A stretch of 64,000 nt of DNA from an uncultured bacterium. Lineage in GTDB: Bacteria; Bacillota_I; Bacilli_A; Acholeplasmatales; Anaeroplasmataceae. This document shows positions 2 through 64,000 of this stretch, in pieces. The translations under genes and the position numbers were made by a program. Numbering within the stretch: the stretch's first letter is position 1; every line of letters begins with the position of its first letter. Under the pieces are notes generated by a model that worked only from the letters and a program-made list of their open reading frames with translations, did no database searches and was not told the origin of the DNA. The DNA is taken from the NCBI GenBank assembly GCA_949293265.1, contig CASFCK010000001.1, positions 1 through 64,000 of the forward strand, in the 5' to 3' direction.

Positions 2-976
2 ATGAGTGTCGAAGATAGAAAATTTATTTTTGATTCAACAGCCCTTAAACTTAAAATGCATCCGGCAATTATAGAAAAAGATTTCTGGATTTGTTATATT
101 TTAGATTACTTGTTCAATGAGTCACAATACAAGAATCATTTTACGTTTAAAGGAGGAACGAGTCTATCTAAAGCATATGATGTTATAACACGTATGTCTG
201 AAGATATTGATTTAATTTTAGATTGGGAAGTTTTAGGAGTAGAAAGAAGTGAACCTTTCTTAGATAGAAGTAAAAGACAACAAGAAATATTAAATGCTAA
301 ATTAAATAATTTAGCACAAGAATTTATAGTTAATGAGTTAAAGTTGGATTTGGTAAATGGTTTAGCGAATATTTCTGGTTTAAATGTGGAAGTTATTAAG
401 GAAGAACAGTTAATAAATATCTATTATCCTAAAATTTATGATACTAGAGTTGCTGGCATTTTGCCATGTGTAAGATTAGAGATTGGTCCTTTAGCAGCTT
501 GGTCTCCTGGAAGTATAGTAGAAGTAAAACCATATATAGATGGTATAATCCCTAATCTTCATATTGAAGAAACTAAAGTCAGAACTGTAACAATTGCAAG
601 AACATTTTGGGAGAAAATAACTATATTACATCAAGAAGCTAATAGACCTAATAATAAGGCTATTCCAAGTAGATATTCGAGGCATTATTAAGATGTCTAT
701 TAAATTTATGCATCAAAATATATTGATAAAATATTAAGTGATAGAGAATTGCTGAAAACAGTAACTAAATTCAAAATTAAATTTTATAGTAGTGGTTGGG
801 CAAAATTTAATGATGTATTAGAAGGTAATTTGAAGATTGTTCCGCTAGATTATAGAATTAAAGAACTTGAAAATGATTATGATTCTATGCGTGAAATGAT
901 AGTAGGAGAACCACCAGAATTTTCTATAATTTTAGATAAGCTTAAGAAATTAGAAAGTATTTTAAACAAAAAATAA
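2..976 (+). pseudogene. Decayed AbiEii/AbiGii-type nucleotidyltransferase toxin gene
   Basis: The reading frame matches the AbiEii (type IV toxin-antitoxin) nucleotidyltransferase family. A GGTS motif lies at residues 51-54 and the metal-binding DxD pair at about D68/D70 (SEDIDL). A late RYSRHY motif is also present. The frame is broken by two in-frame TAA codons, at 689-691 (where Tyr is expected) and 701-703 (where Lys is expected). It then continues in the same frame to 976 with a family-like C-terminus. Each stop is one base away from the expected codon, so this looks like nonsense decay. The ATG at position 2 may not be the true start, because the gene could begin before the window. The cognate antitoxin AbiEi would be expected upstream and is not visible. 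Confidence 0.75.
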
Positions 977-26780: not shown

Positions 26781-27968
26781 TTGGCAAATATTATATTACA
26801 TATTGATTTTAATGCTTTCTTTTGTTCAGTAGCGGAAATCTATAACCCGGCTTTACGTAATACAGCTTTTGCGATAGGTAGGGAAAACTCAAATTACGGG
26901 GTTATATCAACTGCAAGTTATAAAGCACGTGAATATGGTATTCATAGCGGAATGCCTCTAGCATTAGCTTTTAAAAAACTTAAAACATTAAATGTTATAA
27001 GCTTACCTTATTCGTATTATTTGAATTATCATAATAAATTTATTAATTTATTAAAAGAATATACTAATCTAATTGAAGTTGGTTCAATTGATGAGGCTTA
27101 TGTTGACATAACGGAATTAGCTAAAGTTAGACATCCGTTAGTTATAGCTAAAGAAATTCAGACAAGGTTATTAAAAGAATATCATTTGCCATGTTCAATT
27201 GGGATTGCTACTACATTATTTTTAGCTAAAATGGCTTCTGATTTACAAAAACCATTAGGCTTAACCGTGATTAGAAATAAAGACATTAAGAATAAATTAT
27301 ATTGTTTAAGTGTTAGGGATATTTTTGGAATAGGGAAAAAAACATATCCTAAATTAGAAGAAAAAGGAATTAAAACAATTGCTGATTTCTTAAATCAAGA
27401 TAATAAATCTTTAGTTCTAGAAGTTATATCTGAAGACTATTATCTAGAAATTGTAAATAAATTTCAGGGTAAATCAAACAATAAAATAAATCCTTTACAT
27501 AAAGAAGATAATTTATCAATTTCAACTATGAATACTTACGATAGGCGTTTAAATTCAGAACAAGAAATTGAAGAAGAACTATTGATTTTAACTAGAAACG
27601 TCTATAAACGATTAATAAAAGGTAATTATGTAACTAAAACTATTTCTATAACATTAAGAAATATCGAATTTAAAACTATCACTCGGTCTAAAACTATTGA
27701 ATATACTGATGATTTACAAGTGATAAGTGATGAAGTAATTGAATTATTTAGACAAAACTATAAAAACGATACATTGCGGCTAATTGGAGTTGGATTAGCA
27801 AATTTAATTAAGAAAAATTTATTAGTTAAAGATGATGAATATAATTTGTTTACAGCATTAAATAAAGATGAAAAGAAAGAAGTTATTAGTGATTTAATTA
27901 AAGATTTTGAAGGTAAATATGGCAAAAAAGCCTTATATTATGGTAAATATAAGACCCTATTTAATTAA
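26781..27968 (+). CDS. dinB: DNA polymerase IV (Y-family, DinB)
   Basis: A 395-residue translesion polymerase. Catalytic acidic residues are in HIDFNAFF near residue 8 and SIDEAYVD near 100. The helix-hairpin-helix segment VRDIFGIGKKTYPKLEEKGI and the little-finger domain follow. TTG at 26781 is the preferred start, since AAGGAAG lies 8 bases upstream; GTG at 26772 would be too close. A second Y-family polymerase (UmuC-type) is at 42541. Its 3' end overlaps ispH by 12 bp. Confidence 0.93.
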   Translation: MANIILHIDFNAFFCSVAEIYNPALRNTAFAIGRENSNYGVISTASYKAREYGIHSGMPLALAFKKLKTLNVISLPYSYYLNYHNKFINLLKEYTNLIEVGSIDEAYVDITELAKVRHPLVIAKEIQTRLLKEYHLPCSIGIATTLFLAKMASDLQKPLGLTVIRNKDIKNKLYCLSVRDIFGIGKKTYPKLEEKGIKTIADFLNQDNKSLVLEVISEDYYLEIVNKFQGKSNNKINPLHKEDNLSISTMNTYDRRLNSEQEIEEELLILTRNVYKRLIKGNYVTKTISITLRNIEFKTITRSKTIEYTDDLQVISDEVIELFRQNYKNDTLRLIGVGLANLIKKNLLVKDDEYNLFTALNKDEKKEVISDLIKDFEGKYGKKALYYGKYKTLFN

Positions 27969-34000: not shown

Positions 34001-34775
34001 AGCCATTTTTTGCATATTTAACACTAAGGGAATCGATATTTGTTGCATTGATAATAACATATAGACCCTCTTCATAAGTTTGATAATCGGCAATAAAATT
34101 TAGATTTTGTTTAATATAGCCACAAGAACATTTATTATTAACAAAATTATGTTTTTCCTTATAAATAACCTTATCACAATTAACACATTCTTCATAATGA
34201 TAAGTATCATCATATTTAATTTCATATTGATGTTGTTGAAGTGGAAGAAGAATAGATTCATAAGTAACTTCCTTATCACCAGATTCATCGCTAAAATATA
34301 AATGACAGTTTTGACATTGATAACTAAGCTTATGACCTGGTTTAAGGCAAGTCGAGCTTGTTTCAGGAAGTAAGACCAGATTGTGTTTGCCAAGATTAAT
34401 AATTTCATCTAGATCGGTTAATTTCAAGCCTTTTTCATCGAGATAATAATTATGACAAGTAGCACATTCATAATAATTTATAATATTATTTTGACATTTA
34501 TCGTAAATCTTTTTTTCTAAATTATGGGTATGCGAAGTTAATTCATAACCACAATATTCACAAATGTTAGCTTTGAAGTTATGTTTTTCGATAATTTTAT
34601 AATCACAGCTTTTACATGTTTTTTCATGAGTATCTATATCGATAGGGATATATATATATTCATGTTTGTGGAAATTTTTGTGGGAATTATTAATTACAAC
34701 TATAGTAGTTATTATCCCAATTGTTAGAAAAAAAAGAAGAGAAAAAAATATAATAGACTTGAGTTTTTTATTCAT
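31077..34775 (-). CDS. Large surface protein with PL1-type pectate-lyase domain
   Basis: A 1232-residue protein. Residues 7-29 are a signal or anchor helix. Residues 46-220 hold repeated zinc-ribbon-like CxxC pairs (CKSC, CEYC, CATC, CQNC, CVNC) flanked by His. A right-handed beta-helix domain (about 400-700) follows with PL1 pectate-lyase hallmarks: GDGSCDFKRG, DCHKTNLIGSSD and the RQPLAR motif near 597 followed by NIHFYNN. Residues about 870-1130 are helical FIVAR-like repeats (AINNLPNNITI, AREAYNLLPSDL). No LPxTG sorting signal is seen. ATG at 34775 follows AAAGG. Pectin or other uronate-polymer cleavage is inferred. Confidence 0.75.
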   Translation of the reverse strand: MNKKLKSIIFFSLLFFLTIGIITTIVVINNSHKNFHKHEYIYIPIDIDTHEKTCKSCDYKIIEKHNFKANICEYCGYELTSHTHNLEKKIYDKCQNNIINYYECATCHNYYLDEKGLKLTDLDEIINLGKHNLVLLPETSSTCLKPGHKLSYQCQNCHLYFSDESGDKEVTYESILLPLQQHQYEIKYDDTYHYEECVNCDKVIYKEKHNFVNNKCSCGYIKQNLNFIADYQTYEEGLYVIINATNIDSLSVKYAKNGSTSWYNADHNLIRLIDNKVRVDIIGLTNGTYNLKIKLADDEITISNLEVNNYDRSGYAHFNYTNGIGAYLDDGSLKDKTLVIYLSDSNKNNILDYAYVYDKKTNTLNKTDISKYFKNNTDTSIGYFLNNRQYDEKSKYGIKAACLDYGAVNIRVLDLVNAEDKTDSSKSLITGLTAYNSTAFGGSVGDNGRMARMVDAFNLTIEGIGENAGFYGFGIHFIANSNTTTKYGVSTGESFEVRNLSFANYPEDAIGMEGKQENNLITVPVSRCWIHNNVFLPGYCANPAESDKAEGDGSCDFKRGLYYTFSYNYLKDCHKTNLIGSSDTSLQYNISMHHNWWHNCLSRQPLARQANIHFYNNYISVDKDYTGKINYVISARANCYIFAESNYFDGCKQIVDNNNTSGTTKFYNNVFFSCYEGLPNQVNDRLDLVNSNCYYDQTSYTAFENNAQLFYLNDYYLTDPLTARQEVIKNSGTHNYNALKNTQMAENLPPTSVNIDAKNLIIDFSKIRTNETTNLNNIIFTNITNSNQNQISGKGQIITFTLSTKTTMKITVSAKTKEQGAELIDNFGKLYLSKLIGDAEITLPSGTYILASGIKNKEISVSYLEFIQETTKLEQTINAINNLPNNITISNKEQIYNTYKLYSNLSEKDKKQISAELYLKLDAAYTKIQALEVENVINLISKIGVVNENSLMLIKIAREAYNLLPSDLEKLVTNYNDLIKAEETFNNISLNKIITEIKNLIDYNQIDKFNVEAIDYALKAYQDVYTKYTELGNINIDIELINKLNNGITALKSYLVSHKFISILSSLDEFNLSIKDGLKINELQTIYQSLNHLQLSILSDEHIAKYETILKNYDSIINNQIIISFGNENTNYKNYDFITISGNTSTSKGELIYEDITYKTCLKIETATSIIINSSNAELYLYTDAVKDDYIKINDKKIICPNDDGLFYTTINGEITITKGDSINLFLIIIKP

Positions 34776-34794
34776 TATAATTACAACCTTTCTA

Positions 34795-34837
34795 TTAAAG
34801 CGCTTACATTGTAACATATTTTAATATAATCTGTCTA
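34795..34837 (-). promoter_or_regulatory. Promoter and candidate cre box for the pectate-lyase gene
   Basis: Minus strand: -35 TAGACA (34832-34837), 18-base spacer, -10 TACAAT (34808-34813), directly followed by TGTAAGCGCTTTAA (34795-34808). The latter fits the CcpA cre consensus TGWAANCGNTNWCA with one mismatch. A site at the transcription start would repress when preferred sugars are present. No ccpA gene is in the window, so regulation is inferred. Confidence 0.55.
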
Positions 34838-34842
34838 TAAAG

Positions 34843-34871
34843 AAAAAGCTAAAGCTACGAAAGCTTTAGCT
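34843..34871 (-). terminator. Terminator after glgC
   Basis: A 10-bp stem AGCTAAAGCT/AGCTTTAGCT (34847-34856 with 34862-34871) is followed by a T run on the minus strand, separating glgAC from the pectate-lyase promoter. Confidence 0.8.
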
Positions 34872-34877
34872 AAAAGA

Positions 34878-36110
34878 TTATTCTAATGATTCACCACTAT
34901 GTAAATGTTTAGTTTCAATTTTCTTTTTAGTAGCAGATGAAGGAATTCTAACATTACGTTCCACTACCGTGTTTTCAGGTAAAACTAAACGTTTACCAAT
35001 TACATTTATACCTGAATTTAAAACTTTTGGTTTGGCTTTATTTGGTGTGTAGTCATCACCTGTACCAATTACGCAGTTATCACCAATGATGGCTTCTTTA
35101 TCTATAATAGTATTTTCAATATGAACGTTTTTACCAATTTGAACATCATTCAAGATAACTGAATTTTTAACAACTGAACCCTCACCAACTTTAACGCCAG
35201 GAGAAAGAACACTATGATCAATTTTACCATAAATTTGATCACCATGAGAAACTAAAGAATCTTTAATACTTGCCTTATCACCTATTTTTACTGGAGGTAA
35301 GTCTTCGGATTTAGTATATATTTTCCATTTTGTATCATATAAATCGAGAGTGCAATCATCACTACATAGTTGTAGGTTAGCATCTAAATATGAATCATAT
35401 GTTCCTACATCTTTCCAATAGTCATAATATTCATATGCATATACCTTACTATTTTCAATCATATGTGGAATAATATGGTTACCAAAATCTAAATCTACGA
35501 TGTCTGGGTATGATTCAAGTTGTTTAACTAAGGCATCAGTGTTAAATACATAAATACCCATTGAAGCTTTATTAGATTTAGGTTGTTTTGGTTTTTCTTG
35601 GAATTTTGTTACTTGTAATTCATCATTAGTCTCAAGAATACCAAAACGGTTTGCCTCTTCGATTGGAACAATTTTAGCAGCGATTGTAACATCAGCACCA
35701 GTCGCTTTGTGTTGTTCAATCATTTTACGATAATCCATTTTATAAATATGATCACCTGATAAAATTAAAACGTATTTTGAAGCATAACGTTTTACGAATT
35801 CAATATTTTTTCTTACAGCATCAGCTGTACCTTCATACCAAGAATTATTAGGTTGAAGTAGTGTGACAAAAGAATCACGACGGTCTAAGTCCCAAGGTTT
35901 ACCAACACCGATGTGTTCATTTAGTGAAAGTGGTAAATATTGAGTTAAAATACCGATTTGGAAAATGCCACTATTTGTGCAGTTTGATAAGGCAAAATCA
36001 ATAATTCTGAATTTACCTGCAAAAGGTACTGCCGGTTTAGATCTTTTTTCTGATAGAATATCTAATCTAGAGCCTCTACCCCCTGCTAAAATTAAAGCTA
36101 AAGTTTCCAT
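34878..36110 (-). CDS. glgC: Glucose-1-phosphate adenylyltransferase
   Basis: A 410-residue GlgC that makes ADP-glucose from ATP and glucose-1-phosphate. The nucleotide-binding LAGGRGSRLDILSEKRSKPAV opening, the SGDHIYKMDY motif, FQEKPKQPKSNKASMGIYVF and a C-terminal left-handed beta-helix (VSHGDQIYG, VLSPGVKVGEGS) are present. It lies 11 bases downstream of glgA in one transcript. A GlgD-like regulatory subunit is not seen, so a homotetramer is likely. Confidence 0.95.
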   Translation of the reverse strand: METLALILAGGRGSRLDILSEKRSKPAVPFAGKFRIIDFALSNCTNSGIFQIGILTQYLPLSLNEHIGVGKPWDLDRRDSFVTLLQPNNSWYEGTADAVRKNIEFVKRYASKYVLILSGDHIYKMDYRKMIEQHKATGADVTIAAKIVPIEEANRFGILETNDELQVTKFQEKPKQPKSNKASMGIYVFNTDALVKQLESYPDIVDLDFGNHIIPHMIENSKVYAYEYYDYWKDVGTYDSYLDANLQLCSDDCTLDLYDTKWKIYTKSEDLPPVKIGDKASIKDSLVSHGDQIYGKIDHSVLSPGVKVGEGSVVKNSVILNDVQIGKNVHIENTIIDKEAIIGDNCVIGTGDDYTPNKAKPKVLNSGINVIGKRLVLPENTVVERNVRIPSSATKKKIETKHLHSGESLE

Positions 36111-42540: not shown

Positions 42541-43776
42541 ATGTTTTTGTGTATAGACTTGAAATCATTTTATGCCTCGGTTGAATGCGCTATAAGAGGG
42601 TTAAATACATTAAATACTAATTTAGTTGTAGCTGATGAAAAAAGAGGGAAAGGGGCATTATGTTTAGCTGTGAGTCCTAGTTTAAAAGCTTTAGGTGTTA
42701 GAAATAGATGTAGGTTATATGAAATCCCAAATCATATTAATTACATAATTGCTAAACCTAGAATGAGCTTATATATTAAATATTCAGTAATGATTTACAA
42801 AATATATTTAAAATATATTTCTAGTGATGATATTCATCAATATTCAATAGATGAAGCATTTTTAGATATTAGTAGTTATTTAAATTATTATAAAATTAGT
42901 TGTTATGAATTAGCTTTATCTATAATGAATACTATAATGAAAAAAACTGGTATAGTTGCTACATGCGGTATCGGTGAAAATATGTATTTAGCGAAAGTAG
43001 CATTAGATATTTTAGCTAAAAAAAGTAAGGATAATATCGGTTATTTAGATAAAGATTTATATTTATTAAAGCTTGGTTTACACGAACCATTGACTGATTT
43101 TTGGCAAATTGGAACGGGTATTATGATGAGACTTTTAAAATGTAATATTAGGAATATGAAAGATATTAGAAATGCCAACGAAGAGTTATTACACCATGTA
43201 TTTGGTGTAAATGCCAATATTTTGATTGAACATGCTAATGGTAGAGATGAAACTACGATATCAGATATAAAACAATACAATTCTCAAAGTAAAAGTTTAT
43301 CATTATCGCAAGTTTTGTTTTCTGATTATAGTTTCGTTGATGCTAGAAACATATTGAAAGAAATGGTTTTTACTTTAGTTTTATCTTTAATTAATAATGG
43401 ACTATGTACAGGTTTAATAAGTTTACATATTGGCTATGTTAATATAAAAAGTTTTAATAAGCAAAAAATAATCTATAACACCAATTGCTATAGCTTAATA
43501 TGTAAAGATTTTTTATATTTATATGATAAATTTGTCAAAAAAAATGCAAAAATACGACAAGTTAGTATTAGTTTAGGTTTGTTAAAACATAGAGATCAGA
43601 AAGACTATAATTTATTTACTGATGAATTTAAGGAAACTAGAGAAATTAATTTATTAAAAGCAATTAACGAAATCAAGGCAAAATATGGGAGGAATAGTTT
43701 ATTAACTGCCAATAATTTATTAAAAACGTCAACTCAAAAAACTCGTAATGAATTAATAGGAGGACATCATGAATAA
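42541..43776 (+). CDS. Y-family DNA polymerase, UmuC/UvrX-like
   Basis: A 411-residue translesion polymerase. Catalytic residues are in CIDLKSFYASVE near residue 5 and YSIDEAFLDI near 104. The LGVRNRCRLYEIP segment and a DFWQIGTGIMMRLLKCNI thumb region resemble Bacillus YqjW/UvrX. ATG at 42541 is set by AAGGAG 6 bases upstream. A yolD-like gene overlaps its end, the arrangement common for UvrX polymerases on chromosomes, phages and plasmids. An inverted repeat at its promoter suggests tight control. Confidence 0.9.
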   Translation: MFLCIDLKSFYASVECAIRGLNTLNTNLVVADEKRGKGALCLAVSPSLKALGVRNRCRLYEIPNHINYIIAKPRMSLYIKYSVMIYKIYLKYISSDDIHQYSIDEAFLDISSYLNYYKISCYELALSIMNTIMKKTGIVATCGIGENMYLAKVALDILAKKSKDNIGYLDKDLYLLKLGLHEPLTDFWQIGTGIMMRLLKCNIRNMKDIRNANEELLHHVFGVNANILIEHANGRDETTISDIKQYNSQSKSLSLSQVLFSDYSFVDARNILKEMVFTLVLSLINNGLCTGLISLHIGYVNIKSFNKQKIIYNTNCYSLICKDFLYLYDKFVKKNAKIRQVSISLGLLKHRDQKDYNLFTDEFKETREINLLKAINEIKAKYGRNSLLTANNLLKTSTQKTRNELIGGHHE

Positions 43777-55084: not shown

Positions 55085-56202
55085 AAAAGGCTATTGTTAC
55101 AGGATTTATTACTTGTATAATGCTGATTTTAAGTAGTTGTTCATATTATCAAGAATTAATCATTTTAAATTGGCAAGATTATCTATCATATGATTTAATA
55201 ACTAAGTTTGAAGAAGAAAATAACTGTATTGTTACTGAACTAACTACTACTAGCAATGAAAATATGTATAATGATATTTTAAATAGAAGGGTACCATATG
55301 ATATTGTTATTCCTTCTGATTATATGATTGACAAGCTATATAAGAACGCTTTATTAAAAGAAATTGATTTTAATAAACTAACAAATTACGATGAAAATAT
55401 GTTTGTTTTAGAGCTTCAAGAACTGATGTATAGCCAAGCAAATAAACATTATAAAAATTACTATATTCCTTATTTTTGGGGTAGTCTTGGAATAATGTAT
55501 AGTACAAAAAACTATCCTGATTTAGGTAAAATTATTGAAGAATATGGTTGGGCTGTTTTTTTTGAAGATGTATTACCAAAAGGCTGTAAAGTTGGTATGT
55601 ATGATTCGAGCAGGGATGCTTTTGCCTGTGCTGAATTATATTTAGGGTACAGCTTAAATGATACTGATAAAAATCATCTTGATATTTGTGCTAATTTAAT
55701 AGCAAGTAGAAAATTTTCTAAATGGGGAACTGATGATCTTAAAATTGATGTTTCAGCAGGAAACCTTGATGTAGCTTTAGTTTATTCCGGTGATTTTTTT
55801 GATGCATGGTATGCTGATAGTGAGGGTGAAAACAGTAGTAATATTGAAACATATAGTATCTATGCACCAACATCAGCTAATAATGTATTTTACGATGGAA
55901 TGGTTATCCCGATAACTAGTCAGGAAACTGAATTAGCCTATAAGTTTATTGATTTTATGCTAGATTATGAAAACAGTTATATAAATACTGAAGCAGTAGG
56001 TTATTGTCCAACACTACAAAGTGTCTATGATGAAATATTTAGTAGTGATGATTGGGAAGATATAACAAATATTACTGCTTACAATCCGGCATTAATAGTA
56101 GATGAAGCTAAAACAAAAGCTGAAGTGTACTTAGACCTAGGTAATGAAGTGTATCGTTATATGGAAAATTTATACAATAACAAAATACGCTTTGGTAATT
56201 AA
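55081..56202 (+). CDS. potD: Spermidine/putrescine-binding lipoprotein PotD
   Basis: A 373-residue substrate-binding protein with a lipoprotein signal ending in LSSC (Cys near residue 20). The mature part starts with LIILNWQDYLSYDLITKFEE and contains YDIVIPSDYMIDKL, YIPYFWGSLGIMYS and DVALVYSGDF, as in PotD/PotF. It captures polyamines outside and delivers them to PotBC. A strong terminator ends the operon. Confidence 0.93.
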   Translation: MKKAIVTGFITCIMLILSSCSYYQELIILNWQDYLSYDLITKFEEENNCIVTELTTTSNENMYNDILNRRVPYDIVIPSDYMIDKLYKNALLKEIDFNKLTNYDENMFVLELQELMYSQANKHYKNYYIPYFWGSLGIMYSTKNYPDLGKIIEEYGWAVFFEDVLPKGCKVGMYDSSRDAFACAELYLGYSLNDTDKNHLDICANLIASRKFSKWGTDDLKIDVSAGNLDVALVYSGDFFDAWYADSEGENSSNIETYSIYAPTSANNVFYDGMVIPITSQETELAYKFIDFMLDYENSYINTEAVGYCPTLQSVYDEIFSSDDWEDITNITAYNPALIVDEAKTKAEVYLDLGNEVYRYMENLYNNKIRFGN

Positions 56203-56205
56203 ACT

Positions 56206-56232
56206 ATGCTAGCAGATTTGCTAGCATTTTTT
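56206..56232 (+). terminator. Terminator after potD
   Basis: An 8-bp stem ATGCTAGC/GCTAGCAT (56206-56213 with 56220-56227), 6-base loop, then a T run. Confidence 0.85.
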
Positions 56233-56271
56233 ATGTTGTAATAAGTCAGCTATATAATGTTGTTAAAAAAC

Positions 56272-56306
56272 ATTTCAAAAGGTACGTAGTATTTAAAACC
56301 AGATAA
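56272..56306 (+). repeat. Dispersed palindromic repeat, copy 1
   Basis: A 35-base element matching copy 2 at 56444 in 31 of 35 positions. Its core is ACGTAGT-ATTTAAA-ACCAGAT, an imperfect dyad. It lies in a 350-base gene-free stretch between the potD terminator and the nucleoside kinase gene, which otherwise shows only AT-rich sequence. Confidence 0.55.
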
Positions 56307-56443
56307 AAGAATAATAATAAACGTTTAAAAATAATTTAATTAACAAGAAATGGTTATTATATCTATATAGACTTTGAAAATTATATTACTTTATTTTCTA
56401 ATTAAAATAATGTAAAATATATCTACTGAACAACGATAAAATA

Positions 56444-56478
56444 ATTTCAAAAGATATCTAGTATTTAAAACTAGATAA
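56444..56478 (+). repeat. Dispersed palindromic repeat, copy 2
   Basis: Direct repeat of copy 1, 172 bases downstream. The core ATCTAGT-ATTTAAA-ACTAGAT (56456-56476) is a perfect 7-bp inverted repeat with a 7-base loop. It is about 80 bases before the nucleoside kinase start. Confidence 0.6.
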
Positions 56479-56554
56479 GCTAATATATATAAATATATAT
56501 TACAATATTGATATTATTATATATTGTTTTAGAAATAATGAAAGGAATGAAAAA

Positions 56555-58204
56555 ATGATCATTACACTAAATGGGACAAAAAAAGAAGTTAATGGTCCTA
56601 TAAAACTACAAGATTTACTCGTAGCTAATGAAAAAAAGAAATACCAAGCCGCAAAGGTTAATAATCGAATTAGAGAATTAGGTTATGTTTTAAATAACGA
56701 TGCCGAGGTTGAATTTTTAGATTTAACTGACTCAGATGCATGTCGTATTTATCAATCTACACTTAGATATTTAATCGTTATGGCCGCTAAAGAACTATAT
56801 CCTAATTGTCGAATAATTTTTAATTATAGTATTTCCCGTTCAATTTTCGCTACTATAACTAACCTTAATCGTCCTTTTACTAAGAAGGACCTATCAGCTA
56901 TTGAAGAGCGGTTAAAGGCCATTATAGAAGCTGATATGCCTATAATAAGAAAAACTATAACTAAAGACGAAGCATTAGCACTATATGAAAAACAAGGCTA
57001 TATTGATAAGGTTAAAGTATTGAAATATCGGCCTGAAGAAACAGTACACATATATGAATGTGGTGATTATAAAAATTATATGTTTGGGTATATGTTGCCT
57101 TCTACAGGCTATATAAGTGAATATATATTAAGACTTTATACACCTGGCTTTTTAATTCAATATCCACGTTCTGAAACTGGTGGAAAAATACCTAAATTTG
57201 AAGATGCTCCTGTTTTTACTAATGCATTAAGGGAAGCTAATAATTGGGGTAACATCATTGAAGCTAGCTATATTTCACAAATGAACAACTTAGTTGAAAG
57301 TAAAGAAGCATTAGAATTTATAAACGTTTGTGAAACTAAACACAATAATATGCTTGCTGAACTAGGTGAGAACATAAAAAAAACTATCGACGATATTAAA
57401 TTAATCGCTGTAGCAGGTCCATCTTCAAGTGGTAAGACAACATTCACCAACAGGCTTAGAATTGAGCTTATGAGCCGTGGAATTAAGCCTTTAATGATTT
57501 CTATAGATGATTACTATTTAGGTCTGGATAAGGCCCCAAAAGACGAACATGGCAAGCCTGATTTAGAGCATATAGATGCTTTAGATCGCGAATTATTTAA
57601 CGAACATATGTATCGTTTAATTCAAGGCGAAGAAGTGACATTACCACACTTTAATTTTGAAACATCATCAAGAGAAGTTGGTAAGACTGTGAAATTAGGT
57701 AAAAATCAACCTATTATGATTGAAGGTATTCATGCGTTAAATGATGAATTAACCCCATCTATTCCATCACATCAAAAATATAGAATATATATAGCTCCAC
57801 AAGCTCAATTACATATTGATGATCAAAATCCTATAAGCATATCCGATATACGATTAATAAGGAGAATGGTTAGAGATCATAATTATCGAAACTATGACTG
57901 TGAGAAAACGTTAGCGATATGGCCATCTGTTAGAAGAGGTGAATTTAGATGGATTTATCCACATCAAGAAAAAGCTGATTATGTATTCAATAGTGAATTA
58001 ACATATGAATTATGCGTAATGAAAAAGTATGCATTACCACTACTAGAAAGAATCGATTCTGCTAGTCCGCACTATATAACAGCTAATAGATTAATTAAAT
58101 TTTTGAAATACTTTAAAGACATAAAGGATCGTTGGGTTCCATGTAATTCACTACTTAGAGAATTTATTGGTGATTCAATATTTTATACAGATGATTTAGA
58201 ATAA
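56555..58204 (+). CDS. Nucleoside (uridine) kinase with TGS and ThrRS-editing-like domains
   Basis: A 549-residue fusion. Residues 1-60 are a TGS domain, about 65-270 resemble the second additional domain of threonyl-tRNA synthetase, and the C-terminal half is a phosphoribulokinase/uridine kinase with Walker A GPSSSGKTTF near residue 290, SIDDYYLGLDKAP and IEGIHALND. This architecture is widespread in Bacillota as nucleoside kinase. It is monocistronic, with AAAGGAATG-type ribosome-binding sequence before the ATG and a terminator after. Confidence 0.9.
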   Translation: MIITLNGTKKEVNGPIKLQDLLVANEKKKYQAAKVNNRIRELGYVLNNDAEVEFLDLTDSDACRIYQSTLRYLIVMAAKELYPNCRIIFNYSISRSIFATITNLNRPFTKKDLSAIEERLKAIIEADMPIIRKTITKDEALALYEKQGYIDKVKVLKYRPEETVHIYECGDYKNYMFGYMLPSTGYISEYILRLYTPGFLIQYPRSETGGKIPKFEDAPVFTNALREANNWGNIIEASYISQMNNLVESKEALEFINVCETKHNNMLAELGENIKKTIDDIKLIAVAGPSSSGKTTFTNRLRIELMSRGIKPLMISIDDYYLGLDKAPKDEHGKPDLEHIDALDRELFNEHMYRLIQGEEVTLPHFNFETSSREVGKTVKLGKNQPIMIEGIHALNDELTPSIPSHQKYRIYIAPQAQLHIDDQNPISISDIRLIRRMVRDHNYRNYDCEKTLAIWPSVRRGEFRWIYPHQEKADYVFNSELTYELCVMKKYALPLLERIDSASPHYITANRLIKFLKYFKDIKDRWVPCNSLLREFIGDSIFYTDDLE

Positions 58205-58228
58205 AACTTGACAATTGTCAAGTTTTTT
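58205..58228 (+). terminator. Terminator after the nucleoside kinase gene
   Basis: An 8-bp stem AACTTGAC/GTCAAGTT with an AATT loop and six T. Confidence 0.85.
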
Positions 58229-58327
58229 ATTTTTTTATTAAAATAAATAAATATATTCATTTTTTAAAAATGACTATATTGAAAACTTAATTATTTTATA
58301 ATATAATTAGCATAAGAGGTGAATTAT

Positions 58328-59425
58328 ATGTCATGTTTAAATAACATTGATAGATTACAAATAAGCAATGAAACTATGATGAAACTTTTATCGTTATACG
58401 AATACAAAGGTAAAGATTACTATTTTGAAAATATATTAAAAGGTAGTTTATCACAAATAATAAAACAGACTATAGAAAGAGATACTTTCTATTTAGGAAA
58501 GATAATGAACTTAAATATAACAAATAATAGATTTAAATTAATAATTAAAAAAGAATCTACCCCTAAGACAAATGATGAAAAAATACTTCTAAATTTAAAA
58601 AATATATTTAAAATTATAGCTGAACAATCTGATAAATTAGAATTAACAAACAATGAGTTCTTAAGATTAGCTATTAAGATTTATAAAGAAGTAACAAATA
58701 TTCACTATGTAACGGATAACGTAGTAGTAAAAATCAACCTATTAAATGAGAAAAAACAAGAATCTAGACGTAAAAAAATAGATGAATTATTGCAAATATA
58801 TATTAAATTACTTAACGGAAATAAGCATGAATTAACGCAGTTAGTAACTAATTTTTATATAGATTTCATTAATATAAAGCCATTCAACGAAGGAAATGAC
58901 GTAGTTGGTGTTTTAATTATTTATCTATTATTATTAAAAGAACAGTTCAAAATGTTCCATTACGTTTCATTTTTTGAAATGTTATATGATGAATATGACA
59001 ATTTTAAATCATTAGTAAATAAAGCTAATTTTAATTATGATGATGGATATAGTCAAACAGCCCCACTAAATAATTTTATAATTGACATCTTAATAGATGG
59101 ATATGCTAAAGTTGATAAATTAGCATCTGATACTAAATTTGATGCAAATATTACAAAAACATATAACATAGAAAATACGATTATGCGACTAGGCGAAGTC
59201 TTCACGAAAGAAGAAATCAGAGCAAAACACCCATATGTAAGTTTATCTACGATTGATCGAACTTTAAAGAGAATGCGAGACGAGAACAAAATTCGACCTA
59301 ATGGTGTAGGTAGAAGTGCAACTTGGGTTAGAATTTCTAATTATGAAAGATTCGAACCAACATCAAATAGACAAATGAGTCTTTATGATATCATAATGAA
59401 TAACGATAAAGAAGATGAGAAGTGA
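58328..59425 (+). CDS. Fic-domain protein with a lost catalytic motif
   Basis: A 365-residue protein with Fic architecture. The all-helical core (about 85-260) is followed by a winged-helix-like region (about 290-345, FTKEEIRAKHPYVSLSTIDRTLKRM). At the position of the Fic motif HPFxxGNGR it has KPFNEGNDV (residues 184-192). The catalytic His is Lys, and the Gly-Arg pair is Asp-Val. AMPylation activity is therefore unlikely. The frame is otherwise intact with a GAGGTG ribosome-binding site before ATG 58328 and its own terminator. It may act as a regulator or be in early decay. Confidence 0.7.
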   Translation: MSCLNNIDRLQISNETMMKLLSLYEYKGKDYYFENILKGSLSQIIKQTIERDTFYLGKIMNLNITNNRFKLIIKKESTPKTNDEKILLNLKNIFKIIAEQSDKLELTNNEFLRLAIKIYKEVTNIHYVTDNVVVKINLLNEKKQESRRKKIDELLQIYIKLLNGNKHELTQLVTNFYIDFINIKPFNEGNDVVGVLIIYLLLLKEQFKMFHYVSFFEMLYDEYDNFKSLVNKANFNYDDGYSQTAPLNNFIIDILIDGYAKVDKLASDTKFDANITKTYNIENTIMRLGEVFTKEEIRAKHPYVSLSTIDRTLKRMRDENKIRPNGVGRSATWVRISNYERFEPTSNRQMSLYDIIMNNDKEDEK

Positions 59426-59440
59426 TCTCATCTTTTTTTT
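59413..59440 (+). terminator. Terminator overlapping the end of the Fic-like gene
   Basis: An 8-bp stem AGATGAGA/TCTCATCT (59413-59420, 59426-59433) followed by T. The TGA stop lies in the loop. Confidence 0.85.
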
Positions 59441-59460
59441 ATGCTAATTTATATTTTGTA

Positions 59461-59739
59461 ATGTCAAAGTTAAAAGAAGAAGAAAAAGAAGAGACAAAAT
59501 GTAAAGTAAAGTTAGAATCTATTTGCACAGGTAAAATCGAGCAATCGAGATGTACAATTGGTCAGTTTTAACAATTTCGAATCGTATTTAAAGCAAAAAT
59601 GCCTAATAAAACATATTCAAACAGCATAATATGACTATGTTTAACAAGAGAAGAATTAGTGGATTTTATTAATAAACACCCTCTTTATGGTGTCATGAAA
59701 TTCTTTTCGGTACCATTTTTATCATTTTTAAATATCTAA
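59461..59739 (+). pseudogene. Decayed small gene with two in-frame stops
   Basis: One reading frame of 93 codons from ATG 59461 to TAA 59739 is broken only by TAA at 59569 and TGA at 59632. The pieces read protein-like (EEKEETKCKVKLES, then FRIVFKAKMPNKTYSN, then LTREELVDFINKHPLYGVMKFF). No family is recognised and there is no ribosome-binding site, so it is treated as a remnant. Confidence 0.35.
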
Positions 59740-59880
59740 ATAAGTTCCTATAATATATATTATGTTAACCATTAAATTATATAAGAATGGTCTTGTAATT
59801 AGAGTTATGTGGAAAAGTGGATTAAATGATAATATGCTATATTTCGAATTATTCATATTCTACGCATTTTCTTGAAAAAT

Positions 59881-59926
59881 AAAAATCGAGCTTGTGAATT
59901 GGCAAGGACGCCTTTACTCGATTTTT
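59881..59926 (+). terminator. Long-loop hairpin, terminator-like
   Basis: Perfect 10-bp arms AAAAATCGAG (59881-59890) and CTCGATTTTT (59917-59926) enclose 26 bases that include GGC-aaggac-GCC. A T run follows. No gene directly precedes it, so it may end an unrecognised transcript or be part of a mobile-element end. Confidence 0.45.
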
Positions 59927-60008
59927 ATTTAAATTTTATATTTTAATTTAATTTTAAAAAAGTTTACATATTTTTTTGCATTGAATCTAGTTGCTAACCA
60001 CAACACAT

Positions 60009-60029
60009 CTAGTTTTTAAAACCAGATTA
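60009..60029 (+). repeat. Dispersed palindromic repeat, copy 3
   Basis: ATCTAGT-TTTTAAA-ACCAGAT resembles the cores of the copies at 56284 and 56456 (same arms and 7-base centre). Similar TATCTAGT motifs also occur near 989 and 1038. Confidence 0.45.
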
Positions 60030-60155
60030 GCTTCGAAAAATTGTTTTGTTGGTATAATACTATATATGTTACCAGGATTTATAATATTAAATATCTATTA
60101 ATTTTTATATTGATTATTTAATAGATTTTTACTATTTATTGATATGTTTATTTCG

Positions 60156-60233
60156 AATAAAGTAGGCCAGGATTTTCGGCAATTGAAGGCCATGTAAAAG
60201 ACGGTAGTCTAACATGTCTAGGGTAACTTTATT
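60156..60233. other. GC-richer segment, candidate structured RNA or coding remnant
   Basis: An outer 8-bp pair AATAAAGT (60156-60163) and ACTTTATT (60226-60233) encloses GGCC repeats (60165-60168, 60188-60191) and a two-part hairpin: CATGT (60191-60195) with ACATG (60212-60216), and AGAC with GTCT around a GGTA loop. Composition stands out against the surroundings. Alternatively, the minus strand reads 35 open codons with LDMLDYRLLHGLQLPKIL and codons unlike the neighbours, suggesting a foreign protein fragment. Confidence 0.35.
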
Positions 60234-60382
60234 TAAAATTTATTGACTTCTAAATCATAAATTTTTTGACTTTAATAGATTAATAAAATAGAATTGGTAT
60301 TTATTTTTTATATTATTTTTTAGGTTTATGTTTTTACTTAATTAATGATCGGAATCATATAATTTAGACTTTTATATTATGA

Positions 60383-60575
60383 TTACTTTTTAATTTTTAT
60401 GATATCTTACTAAACGATGTCCCAGTTTCTGATCTAATTATTTTTGCTGCTAATCATGTATGCCCACATTGGCTTTTTTAAATATTATTAATTTGATTAT
60501 TGCTTTGTCTATTTAAATATTTATTAAATTGATAGTTCTTTTATCTGTTGTATTAAGTTGGTGGCGTCCTTTTAC
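60383..60575 (-). pseudogene. Possible transposase HTH remnant
   Basis: Minus-strand pieces in two frames read VKGRHQLNTTDKRTINLIN and then LAAKIIRSETGTSFSKIS, with stops and a frame change between. This order of a GR-x-L linker and a helix-turn-helix ending in an SETG-type turn resembles Tc1/IS630-like transposase N-termini. The match is by eye and weak. Confidence 0.25.
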
Positions 60576-61081
60576 TATTTTAATTTATTTATTAGTTTTT
60601 AAATCTTATAAGAAAAATATGTAAAATATATGTTATTAGTATTTAGGCTTTTGATTTTTAAATTAATAAATAGCTTTTATTTTTTAATATTTAATATAAA
60701 AAATGATGTTTAGTGTAATAAAAGTTAGTTTGCTTTTTGCTTATCATTTATGACATTTACTAGATTTAATAATAGGTTTTTAAAATGTGCTTCTTCTTGT
60801 GATAGTTATCAGGTTTGGATTTCTTTTGTTAAATATTATTCCTATTGTTATATCTAGATTTTCTTATATAATAATTCTTCTATTTAAACATTTGTTTTTT
60901 AGATTTATTTAGTAAAATATTGTAAATAAGTATATTTATATATTAATGTTAAATCAATATTTACTTTACAAAAATAATTTAGTTATTTACATAGTTTAAA
61001 ATACTAGCTTTAATAATAAATATATTATTAAACATGTTAATAATAACTATATAAGTGCTGAAAATTTTTCTTTTATACAAT

Positions 61082-61138
61082 AAAAAAAGACAAATCGAAT
61101 TTGTTTTTCCTTAGTATTTCTTCACTCGATTTGTCTTT
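61082..61138 (-). terminator. Terminator of the xerD-deoB-alcohol dehydrogenase transcript
   Basis: Perfect 13-bp arms AAAGACAAATCGA (61086-61098) and TCGATTTGTCTTT (61126-61138) with a 27-base loop. On the minus strand a run of seven T follows. It lies about 130 bases past the dehydrogenase stop. Confidence 0.65.
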
Positions 61139-61268
61139 GATTTTTAAATATTTTTCAACTTTATTGTAGTTTTAAATAGTATGTTTAATGGTTTATAATA
61201 GTTTTAAATATGGTATTAAAAACTAGGTTTGTTTTGAAATATTTTATTCTCTATATATTCTTTTAGTA

Positions 61269-62447
61269 TTATTCGTAACAAGCATTAAGAATTTCTAAAC
61301 AGGTTTCATAGTTTAATATGAATATATCATCAATTGTTCGTTTGCCATTAAATGTATAGAGATTTGCGATACTAGGTAAATCGGTTTTTTTAACTCCAAC
61401 TTCTTTTAATGTTGTTGGCATACCAATTTCTTGAAAATATGTCTTAAACATTTGAATAGCTGTTTTAGCAGCAAATTCAGGTTTTATATTAGTTGATAAT
61501 CCAAGGCTCAAATAGCCTAGTTTTGCAAAAGGTAAAGGATATATTTCAGCTGCTTTATTTGCCCATGCTGGCCATAGTATAGCAAGACCTGCACCATGTG
61601 CTACATGGTCAAATAGACCAGATAAAGCATGCTCCATTTGATGTACAGGCATTTGATATTCTTTACCACAGGCTGTTAAACCATTATGACTTAAACTAGA
61701 TGCCCACATTAATGTAGCTCTTGCGTCGTAGTCATTTGGTTTGTTATATGCTATTTTACCGACTTCGTAAACTGCTTTAATTAAACCATAGGCTAAGTTA
61801 TCTGTTAGTGGATTATATGTGTTATCATATGATAATACTCTTTCGAGCGTATGCATCATTATATCAACAATACCACAAGCGGTTTGATACTTAGAAACGC
61901 TATATGTAAATTTGGGATTACATATTGCAAATAAAGGGCGATTTAACTCTGAACTGAAACCCCGTTTGTCGTTTAATCTATCATTTGTAATTACACATGA
62001 ATTTGACATTTCACTACCAGCAGCTGAAATGGTTAATATTACACCTACAGGTAATGATTTTTCTAATTTCTTTTCCCCGCAATTATAAACCCAAGGACTG
62101 CAATCAGTATAAAATCCGGCCGCAATACTCTTAGCTGAGTCTATTACAGAACCACCACCAACGGCTAAAATGAAGTCAATATTAGCTTCTTTTGCTAATT
62201 TTACTCCTTGTTCTACTAAACTAAGTTTTGGGTTTGCTTCTACACCGCCTAATTCAATGTAGTCTATATTATTGTTTTTTAATTCATCAACAACATAATC
62301 ATAAAGTCCTATTTTTCTAATTGATTCCTTACCGTAGTGGAATAATATTTTTTTGAATTTATATTCTCTTAATATCTTTCCTAAATTTTTTTCAGCATCT
62401 ATGCCAAAGAAAACTTTTGTTGGCGTATTATAAATAAAATTTCTCAT
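61269..62447 (-). CDS. Iron-containing alcohol dehydrogenase (butanol-dehydrogenase-like)
   Basis: A 392-residue group III alcohol dehydrogenase. The NAD(P) site GGGSVIDSAKSIA is near residue 95. Metal ligands are Asp in CGIVDIMMHTLE and His in PVHQMEHALSGLFDHVAHGAG. The opening NFIYNTPTKVFFG is typical of BdhA/YqhD-type enzymes that reduce aldehydes in fermentation. It follows deoB by one base, which may link deoxyribose-derived acetaldehyde to ethanol, an inference from position. Confidence 0.92.
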   Translation of the reverse strand: MRNFIYNTPTKVFFGIDAEKNLGKILREYKFKKILFHYGKESIRKIGLYDYVVDELKNNNIDYIELGGVEANPKLSLVEQGVKLAKEANIDFILAVGGGSVIDSAKSIAAGFYTDCSPWVYNCGEKKLEKSLPVGVILTISAAGSEMSNSCVITNDRLNDKRGFSSELNRPLFAICNPKFTYSVSKYQTACGIVDIMMHTLERVLSYDNTYNPLTDNLAYGLIKAVYEVGKIAYNKPNDYDARATLMWASSLSHNGLTACGKEYQMPVHQMEHALSGLFDHVAHGAGLAILWPAWANKAAEIYPLPFAKLGYLSLGLSTNIKPEFAAKTAIQMFKTYFQEIGMPTTLKEVGVKKTDLPSIANLYTFNGKRTIDDIFILNYETCLEILNACYE

Positions 62448-62448
62448 T

Positions 62449-63624
62449 CTATAACTCCTTTAAAAAAGATTTGCCAATAGGTTGAGGCTTTAATTTAAAG
62501 TTTTCGTTAATTGTTTGACCTAAATCCGCAAATGATGTTCTTAAGCCTAAATTCACGCCTTTAATTTTTCTATTATAAGCAAAGACAGGAACTAATTCTC
62601 TTGTATGATCAGTACCATGCCATGTAGGGTCATTGCCATGATCAGCTGTAATTAACAGTAAATCATCATCATTAAGCAAAGGTAATAATTTAGATAAATC
62701 ATAATCAAACTCCTCTAAAGCTTTTTTATAACCTTCAGGATTTCTTCTATGACCATATAGCGCGTCGAAATCAACTAAATTTAGATAGCATAAGCCTTTA
62801 AAATTTGTTTTAGCAATTTCATTCATAATTTCCATTCCGTTATGATTAGAAACAGTTTTATAGGCTTTAGTTATACCACAACCGTTATAAATGTCATTAA
62901 TTTTACCGATGCTAATTACATCATAGCCGCTTACTTTTAAATAATCTAATGTGGTTTCATGAGCCGGAGATAATGCATAATCATGACGATTAGGTGTTCT
63001 TACAAAATTATATTTATTAGTTCCAACAAAAGGTCTAGCTATTATACGTCCTACTTTCCATTCTGGTTTCATACAAATTTCTCTAGCAATATTACAACAA
63101 CGATATAATTCGTCCAAGCCAAAAACTTCCTCGTGGCATGCAATTTGTAAAACACTATCAGCAGATGTATAAACGATCATAGCCTTAGTTCTAAGGTGTT
63201 CTTCACCTAGTTCTTTGATTATTTCCGTACCACTTGCAGCACAATTACCGATAACTTTATGACCTGTTTTATTTTCTAATTCAGCAATTAATTCTTTAGG
63301 GAATCCTGTGTCAGTGAATGTTTTTAAAGGTTTTGTTGTTAATACTCCCATAAATTCAAAATGCCCTGTTAAAGTATCTTTACCAACACTAGCTTCTTGC
63401 ATTTTACCATAACACGCTACTGGGTTAGTATTAGGGCTAACTCCTTTAATTTTAGTTAAATTACCATAACCAAATCGTTGTAGACATGGTAATTTAATAC
63501 CATTACATGCATCAGCAATATGACTGATAGTATTTGCACCTTCATCACCATAGTTTATACTAGTAGGATCACTACCACATCCTACAGAATCCATTACGAT
63601 AGTAAATATTCTTTTAAATTCCAT
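62449..63624 (-). CDS. deoB: Phosphopentomutase
   Basis: A 391-residue DeoB interconverting ribose- or deoxyribose-1- and 5-phosphates in nucleoside salvage. Metal-binding VMDSVGCGSDP at the start, GKDTLTGHFEFMG, and the late LLITADHGNDPTWHGTDHTRE are conserved. Its ATG overlaps the xerD stop (TAATG), keeping the Bacillus xerD-drm order, although the purine nucleoside phosphorylase gene is replaced here by an alcohol dehydrogenase. Confidence 0.96.
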   Translation of the reverse strand: MEFKRIFTIVMDSVGCGSDPTSINYGDEGANTISHIADACNGIKLPCLQRFGYGNLTKIKGVSPNTNPVACYGKMQEASVGKDTLTGHFEFMGVLTTKPLKTFTDTGFPKELIAELENKTGHKVIGNCAASGTEIIKELGEEHLRTKAMIVYTSADSVLQIACHEEVFGLDELYRCCNIAREICMKPEWKVGRIIARPFVGTNKYNFVRTPNRHDYALSPAHETTLDYLKVSGYDVISIGKINDIYNGCGITKAYKTVSNHNGMEIMNEIAKTNFKGLCYLNLVDFDALYGHRRNPEGYKKALEEFDYDLSKLLPLLNDDDLLLITADHGNDPTWHGTDHTRELVPVFAYNRKIKGVNLGLRTSFADLGQTINENFKLKPQPIGKSFLKEL

Positions 63625-64000
63625 TATTCATTTTCCTCCTTTTTTAATGGATGTGTATTTTGATAAATTTCTTTGAGTTTGGTTTTATCTATATGTGTAT
63701 ATATTTGAGTTGTTGAAATATCTTCATGGCCTAATAATTCCTGAACAATTCTTAAACTAGCTCCATTAGCTAATAAATGGGTAGCAAAACTATGCCTAAT
63801 TGTATGAGGTGAAATAGTTTTATCAATCCCAGCTTCGCTAGCTAAATTTCTAATATATTTAAAAAAACCTTGACGGGACATTTTTTCACCTTTATAGTTA
63901 TAAAACAATAATGAGCCAGGCTTTTTACTAATATTTGAACGTGAATTTTCAATATAATCTCTAAGAGCAATTATTGCCATATCTCCTAGTGGAATAATTC
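63624..64000 (-). CDS. xerD: Tyrosine recombinase XerD, C-terminal part (cut by window edge)
   Basis: The frame is open to the window end, so the N-terminus lies outside. The visible 125 residues hold the HTIRHSFATHLL box, LLGHEDISTTQIYTH with the conserved His and catalytic Tyr, and the IPLGDMAIIALRDYI lead-in. The first catalytic Arg is off-window. Its position before deoB identifies it as the chromosome-dimer-resolution XerD rather than a phage integrase. Confidence 0.85.
   Translation of the reverse strand, partial: IIPLGDMAIIALRDYIENSRSNISKKPGSLLFYNYKGEKMSRQGFFKYIRNLASEAGIDKTISPHTIRHSFATHLLANGASLRIVQELLGHEDISTTQIYTHIDKTKLKEIYQNTHPLKKEENE

Follow-up and report, generated by a model that had tools for sequence, protein, structure and literature searches.

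The window, a stretch of 64,000 nucleotides from an uncultured member of the Anaeroplasmataceae, encodes a Fic-family protein that has lost its catalytic residues and is nevertheless inherited vertically under purifying selection. In most families the gene of this protein, referred to here as pseudo-Fic, is positioned next to dif, the recombination site of XerCD, and it is linked to parE-parC, the genes of topoisomerase IV (topo IV). Two classes of palindromes of fixed geometry accompany it, one in the promoter of its transcription unit and one beside dif, and a short motif recurs at the end of its C-terminal tail. The sequence data suggest, with a probability of about 0.6, that pseudo-Fic is a repurposed Fic protein with binding sites next to dif and in its own promoter and serves as an accessory factor of terminus processing. 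The protein probably helps to untangle and separate finished chromosomes. An earlier note on this DNA is partly supported by the results below; it mentioned neither dif and the parE-parC operon nor the palindromes or the clamp-type tail.

Positions of the pseudo-Fic gene and associated features in the window
Feature	Position	Strand	Remark
Uridine-kinase-like (PRK) protein	56555..58204	+	Cluster directly upstream of pseudo-Fic in 71/114 loci
Promoter palindrome TAAATATATTCA-N11-TGACTATATTGA	58248..58282		Abuts -35-like TTGAAA (by eye); presumed operator
Pseudo-Fic gene	58328..59425	+	Fic core aa ~60-265, winged helix aa ~277-335, flexible tail
Degenerate catalytic motif KPFNEGNDV	58877..58903	+	aa 184-192
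QMSLY	59372..59386	+	aa 349-353; resembles beta-clamp (DnaN) binding pentapeptide QL[S/D]LF
Dif-flanking palindrome AAAACATATTCA-N12-TGACTATGTTTA	59608..59643		99 nt before dif; presumed pseudo-Fic site
dif, XerCD recombination site AGTTCCTATAATATATATTATGTTAACC	59743..59770	+	Sole match within 3 mismatches in the window's genome
Tyrosine recombinase gene	63624..63998	-	Runs off the window edge; N-terminus missing

The reading frame of pseudo-Fic is open from 58328 to 59425. It starts at the GTG at 58319 or, better, at the ATG at 58328, which is directly preceded by AGAGGTG, and its stop codon at 59425 is overlapped by a hairpin followed by T8. Family libraries mostly miss the gene. The Pfam Fic model reaches 5 of 65 members (E <= 0.001), and no NCBIfam model matches the window protein at E <= 1. 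The score of the window protein with Pfam Fic PF02661, 25 bits against a cut-off of 24, gives a weak assignment above the threshold. Two more Fic-domain genes with higher Pfam scores are present in the genome of the window (G000:C45:661-909 and G000:C32:10866-11120).

The AlphaFold2 model of the window protein, calculated from a 65-sequence family alignment, has a mean pLDDT of 90.8 and contains a C-terminal winged helix at about residues 277-335. The structure 8uqu ranks first among solved structures in the comparisons of the model by Foldseek (E 8e-11, TM 0.90 by target) and VIA-align (Z 31.0, rmsd 1.9 Å over 249 residues), and it is the sole solved-structure sequence relative at E <= 1e-3 (E 1.4e-10). 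The model, the 8uqu match, and the Pfam score indicate that the predicted fold of the window protein is a Fic fold; both structure-match lists are filled by this one domain, which leaves room for other folds. The earlier note pointed to a Fic fold joined to a winged helix. Amino acids 19-335 of the window protein align with 39-364 of the 8uqu chain sequence, winged helix included, and the intact-motif relatives align through the winged helix as well; judged from these alignments, the arrangement is already known. The fold is shared with intact-motif Fic proteins that are extended at the C-terminus or carry a winged helix there, from Bordetella (8uqu, the closest structure), Shewanella (3eqx, 3zcn, 3zec), and Desulfovibrio (4rgl); pseudo-Fic differs from these in its lost catalytic and inhibitory residues.

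The replacement of HPFxxGNGR by KPFNEGNDV in an intact gene, reported previously for this DNA, is confirmed at residues 184-192 of the protein. The catalytic His, the Arg of the GNGR motif, and the inhibitory Glu are each found in 0/115 distinct pseudo-Fic orthologues, whereas all three are present in 14/14 lower-scoring Fic relatives. Accordingly, the active-site motif HPFx[D/E]GN[G/K]R is missing from all 115 members of the family. The inhibitory-helix glutamate is a feature of autoinhibited Fic proteins, and the loss of this brake along with the engine, the His and the Arg, would fit a true pseudoenzyme. The residues Lys-Asp-Val, the conservation of which had been put forward for checking, are not conserved; what is kept is the motif Asn (Asn190, in 109/115) and an acidic residue, Asp or Glu, next to it (106/115). 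The separation of the 115 pseudo-Fic sequences from the 14 others is based on match score and tree, not on the motif alone, with the lowest pseudo-Fic at 147 bits and the highest other sequence at 110 bits. The loci were deduplicated by identical ORF, and locus L054, with no ORF at the match, was dropped.

Protein searches identified matches in 83/100 relatives at E <= 1e-5, in two of which (G087 and G094) the sole match is a Fic protein with an intact motif, and in 118/296 genomes of the class at E <= 1e-20, four of which (G153, G200, G223, and G264) have an intact-motif Fic as the match. The matches of the family profile split into two groups, at or above 299.7 bits and at or below 164 bits. 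The profile search was put to the phylum, and every genome listed belongs to the class of the window. Neither pseudo-Fic nor dif was found in two genomes of the window genus (G004 and G005), reflecting either the loss of both together or an assembly gap at the terminus that affects both. In genus g23, the five genomes listed lack FtsK gamma as well as any dif with up to three mismatches, and pseudo-Fic has no match there at E <= 1e-20; this pattern fits the loss of the whole system.

Pseudo-Fic is an old and strongly preserved protein, not a broken copy. The window copy differs from its nearest relative by 72 synonymous and 3 non-synonymous changes, which corresponds to a w of 0.007; the values for three neighbour genes in the same comparison, 0.023, 0.041, and 0.102, are all higher. 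Among six members of the genus, the non-synonymous difference is 0.086 in the winged helix, 0.127 in the N-terminal region, 0.163 in the motif helix, and 0.189 in the Fic core, and the winged helix is thus the slowest of the regions measured. Nine of the 14 invariant positions are within the winged helix (F292, P302, S305, T308, I309, L313, G328, R329, and W333). In the tree, the 115 pseudo-Fic sequences are on one side of a branch with a support of 100, apart from the 14 others, and nearly every family forms one group (19 changes for 19 groups, with a minimum of 18). A decaying pseudogene or an assembly artefact is ruled out by the intact frames, the w of 0.007, and the same lesion in all 115 orthologues, and horizontal, toxin-like spread by the mostly single-group families and the conserved synteny. 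Close relatives with the full motif together with relaxed selection on the window copy were looked for and did not occur. The selection for a Fic fold that is presumably non-AMPylating, as the earlier note proposed, agrees with the absence of His, Arg, and inhibitory Glu from the family and with the low w of the window copy.

The genomic neighbourhood ties pseudo-Fic to topoisomerase IV. In 70 of the 94 loci that have at least 3.9 kb of upstream sequence, one of the five preceding genes is a parC on the strand of pseudo-Fic; L135 was excluded from this count, as the ORF caller took an antisense frame there. The ParE and ParC of one locus were confirmed by the NCBIfam equivalogs TIGR01058 and TIGR01061. 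Among loci with enough sequence, those of families f7, f12, f16, f19, f23, and f24 mostly have the order parE-parC-(one gene or none)-pseudo-Fic, and those of f3 and f5 mostly parC-kinase-pseudo-Fic. Different genes precede pseudo-Fic in f9, and the genes downstream vary between families. The window genus has retained the kinase gene, with topo IV unlinked; its parC is about 115 kb away (G000:C1:174015-176216). Behind the kinase gene, the genus has retained the hairpin AACTTGACAATTGTCAAGTT and a T-rich run (58205-58236), from which a separate promoter for pseudo-Fic is expected there. The tyrosine recombinase gene is positioned on the far side of dif, behind deoB, and its full copy in the relative L147 is XerD (NCBIfam TIGR02225). 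A search for structured RNA in the region 56000-62000 found no Rfam family that reaches its gathering score.

The dif sequence AGTTCCTATAATATATATTATGTTAACC was derived from the aligned downstream DNA of six genus members, in which the block is identical except for one base of the window copy. The dif of B. subtilis is ACTTCCTAGAATATATATTATGTAAACT (PMC3025954, excerpt). In the window, dif is 317 bp from the end of pseudo-Fic. Matches to AGTTCCTATAATATATATTATGTTAACC within three mismatches are present in 41/100 relatives and 110/296 class genomes, once in each except G219, which has two. Searches with four seed variants located dif in 69/114 loci, 0.2-2.2 kb downstream of the gene in f1, f2, f4, f5, f7, f9, and f19, and 3.5 and 6.8 kb downstream in two f12 loci, which are the only exceptions to this range. 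When both strands were searched, all dif matches of at least 22 of 27 bases were on the strand of the gene. A dif-linked gene in all families is ruled out by f3, f16, f23, and f24, where dif is at least 18 kb from the gene or on another contig.

The GC skew of the last 4 kb of the window is negative after positive bins, which fits a terminus, although the bin 32001-36000 is slightly negative too. Over the last 24 kb, the cumulative skew reaches its maximum at 61538. Between dif and a convergent alcohol dehydrogenase gene (59771-61268), about 1.5 kb of AT-rich DNA contains no ORFs of at least 60 amino acids, and many f1 loci likewise have a long empty stretch after dif. The usual description of chromosomal dif is that of a 28-bp core activated by FtsK. 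FtsK gamma is present in 264/296 class genomes, which leaves the idea of pseudo-Fic as an FtsK replacement unsupported; pseudo-Fic would add to FtsK. The same count leaves no evident gap for an accessory factor to fill, which speaks against the proposed role.

The palindromes were first noticed by eye at the promoter and beside dif. In the window genus, the palindrome TATANTCA-N11-TGANTATA abuts a -35-like element of the pseudo-Fic promoter, and alignment on dif yields the consensus element TAAACATANTCA-N11..13-TGANTATGTTTA. The core TANTCA-N(8..14)-TGANTA, a pattern derived partly from the sites that were then counted, was counted 19 times in the 8.4 kb that precede pseudo-Fic (2.25 per kb) and 3 times in the 3.1 kb that precede parE, compared with 0.16 per kb in other intergenic DNA and 0.012 per kb in coding DNA. 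The spacers of the sites upstream of pseudo-Fic or parE are solely 11-14. A longer core pattern with the N11 spacer, the spacing covered by the genome-wide scan, has 0-4 strand-unique places per genome in 15 whole genomes. Palindromes are located upstream of parE in f3 and f19, and sites upstream of the gene or parE in f12 and f19.

Beside dif, 20 loci of f1, f5, f7, and f9 have a match to 9 or 10 of the 10 core positions in a single 6-bp bin at -132, and the core matches over all 900 bp of 69 loci number 61 against 18 expected. The gap between palindrome and dif is 98-99 nt in 65/76 sites and 96-100 nt in 75/76. A model of the dif-flank site run over 1.236 Mb (at least 17 of 22 positions) gave 140 matches, of which 42 are at dif -130, a further 30 are upstream of pseudo-Fic or parE, and 12 are at dif +265; other intergenic DNA has 18 and coding DNA 38. 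Some places are counted twice because of two spacers, and upstream denotes the next gene at any distance. The +265 class was seen in f1 only. A second, like palindrome is present about 265 bp beyond dif in L026, L027, L032, L050, and L051, and two f19 loci have a site at +209/+251. Loci L046/L047 have a palindrome at about -65 of dif and the variant half-site TACCTCA upstream of pseudo-Fic and at dif +268; their promoter and dif sites look as if they were changing together. A scan of mean dyad symmetry by offset rediscovered dif itself and nothing else, and a count of perfect dyads upstream of parE found none that were shared. The slow winged helix and the conserved palindromes in the promoter and beside dif support a DNA-binding function, one half of the DNA-binding or sensor role suggested in the earlier note; there is zero evidence for the sensor.

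Linked loci served to build the dif-flank model, which was then tested on genomes outside this group by way of their dif flanks. For the first set of these, the -130 score exceeded the 95th percentile of control positions in 12/15 genomes of f3, 8/9 of f16, 2/2 of f23, and 6/6 of f24, in contrast to 0/1 of f12, 0/2 of f19, and 0/20 genomes without the gene; the totals over the first 35 and 20 genomes are 28 and 0. The best site of the +-450 bp flank was at -129+-4 in 49/69 linked loci, 29/35 unlinked genomes, and 0/20 genomes without the gene. The 35 included three with dif near the gene (G156 of f12; G313 and G190 of f19), and without them the count is 29/32. Scrambled controls, models with swapped halves or reversed, gave 0 to 4 per group. 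A last set, evaluated with model and criterion fixed, repeated the result, with 8/8 in f16, 2/2 in f24, 0/1 in f19, and 0/9 without the gene, or 10/10 unlinked positives against 0/9 negatives.

The combined unlinked genomes (f3 12/15, f16 17/17, f23 2/2, f24 8/8) amount to 39/42 against 0/29 without the gene; the Fisher probability of 7e-17 is not to be taken at face value, because the genomes are related. Counted by family, the result is 10/12 against 0/6 (0.0015), with f2 and f4 counted positive on weak scores, and the families are not independent, since the positive ones may be one clade. The tested flanks comprise those of all 15 f3 genomes, all 17 of f16, all 8 of f24, and both of f23 with a dif match, one of f12, and three of f19, and the negatives are all 29 dif-matching genomes of f10, f11, f13, f14, f15, and f20 without a gene match (E <= 1e-20); the make-up of these groups was counted by hand from lists. 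Families f2, f4, and f5 match the model only weakly. A site at -130 was found in 0/3 genomes of f12 and 0/5 of f19, although both families have the gene, and the best flank site was at -129+-4 in 0/1 and 0/3 of their tested flanks and in 0/2 and 0/2 of their linked loci. Except in f12 and f19, dif thus has a site-like element at constant spacing from its XerC arm, as Xer sites with accessory sequences do. The side was assigned from the arm order of E. coli dif.

The C-terminal tail of pseudo-Fic may connect it to the replication machinery. Clients of the sliding clamp carry QL[S/D]LF or QxxLF motifs (PMC12309361, excerpt). After the winged helix and a variable linker, 68/115 tails finish with a Q-x-x-[LI]-[FY] type end by a loose pattern (f1 36/42, f3 20/21, f5 11/12, other families 1/40), which is missing from the remaining 47/115 and from all intact-motif Fic (0/14). 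In QMSLY of the window, Tyr replaces the Phe of the pentapeptide. The tails of f16, f24, and f7 have related ends, such as QLDLNI and QLNLDL; nothing similar to the clamp motif is found in those of f9, f12, f19, and f2. A stricter pattern matches 64/113 pseudo-Fic tails against 8/779 neighbour proteins, four of the eight being f12 ParC, and a mean of 0.3 of 111 shuffled tails. PolC ends, used as a positive control, are NQISLFDL in f12, SQMNLFNL in f16, NQLSLF in f7, and NQVSIFDF in f24; among the 15 PolC read, the end is degenerate (xGLFA and similar) in the order of the window. In the members with this end, the pseudo-Fic tail has a QxxLF-type motif in an accessible segment, as clamp clients do, and would bind DnaN.

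The tails of ParC encoded upstream of pseudo-Fic (for example at L160:2751-5324) contain a clamp-motif-like [LIF]-[SDT]-L-F after a linker in 59/69 cases, compared with 13/709 other proteins, and QxxLF proper in 21/69; the truncated L112 was left out of the ParC count. This tail is also present in f12 and f2, whose pseudo-Fic lacks the motif, and topo IV itself may bind the sliding clamp in the class of the window. The 14 GyrA tails inspected as a check are mostly without the motif, one (G085) ending in DSLFDE. Two Y-family polymerase (IMS) domains are encoded in the window at 26802-27242 and 42553-43005, and DinB has EYNLF in f1 as opposed to QLNLF and QLNIF in f12 and f16.

The same palindrome at the operon promoter and in the dif flank makes the winged-helix pseudo-Fic most simply the binder of both, and pseudo-Fic would be what binds the palindromes. 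The protein may also be read as no more than an autoregulated transcription factor acting on the topo IV operon, with a winged helix that represses its own or the parE promoter, a Fic domain that dimerises or senses a ligand, and a dif-flanking site that is secondary and without a role in dimer resolution. The palindromes that abut the -35-like element in the window genus and precede parE in f3 and f19 agree with such a regulator, as do f12 and f19, which have promoter-type sites and none at -130 of dif. However, the dif-flank site keeps its fixed distance even where dif is far from the gene (39/42), which gene regulation leaves unexplained and which makes this explanation unlikely. Another DNA-binding protein of the terminus, similar to MatP, RTP, or an SMC loader, could own the palindromes, and pseudo-Fic would then do something else, such as using its Fic surface and its tail to hold topo IV or the clamp. 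The families that have pseudo-Fic and no site at -130 (f12 and f19) allow for this, pseudo-Fic being only a candidate binder, but the occurrence of the same half-sites in the pseudo-Fic or operon promoter of several families is the usual sign of an autoregulator, and the best flank site is at -129+-4 in 0/29 genomes without the gene, so that a separate owner of the sites is rather improbable.

RTP is a winged-helix protein encoded near its own sites. A replication-fork trap like RTP/Tus, in which the winged helix at the dif-side site blocks forks or keeps termination near dif, would be in keeping with the winged helix, the site near dif, the promoter site, and the clamp-type tail. It is nonetheless very improbable, given that the palindrome is single and symmetric where a trap would have opposed polar sites, that further sites are scarce (each of 15 genomes has 0-4 core N11 matches), and that strict core sites stand on both sides of dif in just one of 69 loci (L050, at -130 and +265). 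Motif-less Fido enzymes may have a different chemistry, and the Asn190 and adjacent acidic residue kept in most of the 115 members could be part of a new active site. Such a kept or gained activity is the least probable explanation, in view of the loss of all three residues, His, Arg, and inhibitory Glu, and of the concentration of most invariant residues and the lowest non-synonymous rate in the winged helix. The accessory-factor reading itself is weakened by exceptions to each of its components, namely the dif site in f12 and f19, the tail in f9, f12, f19, and f2, and the operon in f9 and the window genus, and it leaves the role of the Fic domain unexplained. The weak model matches of f2, f4, and f5, the 38/140 model matches in coding DNA, and the 47/115 tails without the pentapeptide also speak against it.

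In the accessory-factor reading, pseudo-Fic is an ancient pseudoenzyme; its Fic domain has lost the residues for nucleotide transfer and autoinhibition, and the protein has kept the fold, the Asn-[Asp/Glu] remnant, and the highly conserved winged helix. The protein, presumably as a dimer, would bind TAAACATANTCA-N11..13-TGANTATGTTTA in the promoter of its own transcription unit, before its own gene or before parE in the topo IV operon, and regulate its own expression. At the second palindrome, 98-99 nt from the XerC arm of dif, the bound protein would organise the dif region. This organisation would serve recombination by XerCD and decatenation by topo IV, the last steps of chromosome separation, and we infer that pseudo-Fic acts on one or the other of these. 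In many lineages, the clamp-binding tail would tie pseudo-Fic to the sliding clamp. A more far-reaching proposal is tentative and somewhat doubtful: a Fic protein was domesticated once, before the families split, into a dedicated terminus factor, encoded beside topo IV, that reads a cer-like accessory site of the chromosomal dif, physically joins dif/XerCD, topo IV, and the sliding clamp, and couples dimer resolution, decatenation, and the end of replication.

Individual elements of the proposed system have counterparts in known ones, described here from excerpts of the cited articles. Plasmid sites such as cer are known to have accessory sequences and DNA-binding proteins that go with them (PMC3025954, PMC2409434). 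In cer, the Arg-box bound by ArgR is 98 bp upstream of the XerC site (PMC2409434), and the ArgR/PepA system resembles the pseudo-Fic case in this spacing of about 98 bp between a protein's site and the XerC arm. The pseudo-Fic case, known from sequence alone, differs from cer in its chromosomal dif, its Fic-derived candidate binder, and a gene near topo IV. The dif of E. coli is the place of a network of topo IV, XerCD, and MatP (PMC4865107). MatP binds DNA of the terminus and has ties to topo IV and dif, as proposed for pseudo-Fic, but it uses dispersed matS sites and not one fixed beside dif. The neighbours, the site, and the tail place pseudo-Fic for a role in the topo IV/XerCD network with a different fold. 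MatP-type organisers have many sites dispersed over the terminus domain; for the pseudo-Fic palindrome, the count of 0-4 core matches per genome covers the N11 spacer in 15 genomes. MatP is not known to be related to pseudo-Fic. Fic proteins that AMPylate ParE/GyrB (PMC7479194) share with pseudo-Fic the fold and a tie to topo IV; in pseudo-Fic, the tie is genomic, through the neighbouring parE-parC, the motif is dead, and inheritance is vertical. A Fic gene beside parE invites the idea of domestication, with such ParE-modifying enzymes as putative ancestors. The C-terminal Q-x-x-[LI]-[FY] on a flexible tail is common to pseudo-Fic and sliding-clamp clients (PMC12309361), and this putative clamp binder differs from the known clients in being neither a polymerase nor a known repair protein.

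Searches of the open PMC literature found no paper on a pseudo-Fic or inactive Fic as a regulator or pseudoenzyme, and none on a Fic domain with a degenerate HPFxxGNGR and a winged helix. Among the matches listed for dif, the terminus, and topoisomerase IV, none mentions a Fic family protein, and by title and the start of the abstract none of the papers found on dif accessory sequences and palindromes concerns the dif-flanking element described here. In a large part of a bacterial class, an accessory palindrome appears to accompany the chromosomal dif, spaced from it roughly as the Arg-box is in cer, and the candidate binder of the palindrome is of unexpected origin, a catalytically dead Fic protein encoded beside topo IV. 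The analysis names a conserved gene mostly missed by family libraries, and pseudo-Fic illustrates a possible fate of a toxin-like enzyme fold. For small-genome relatives of the mycoplasmas, the protein suggests a connection of topo IV with XerCD, and perhaps with the replication clamp, that is open to direct testing.
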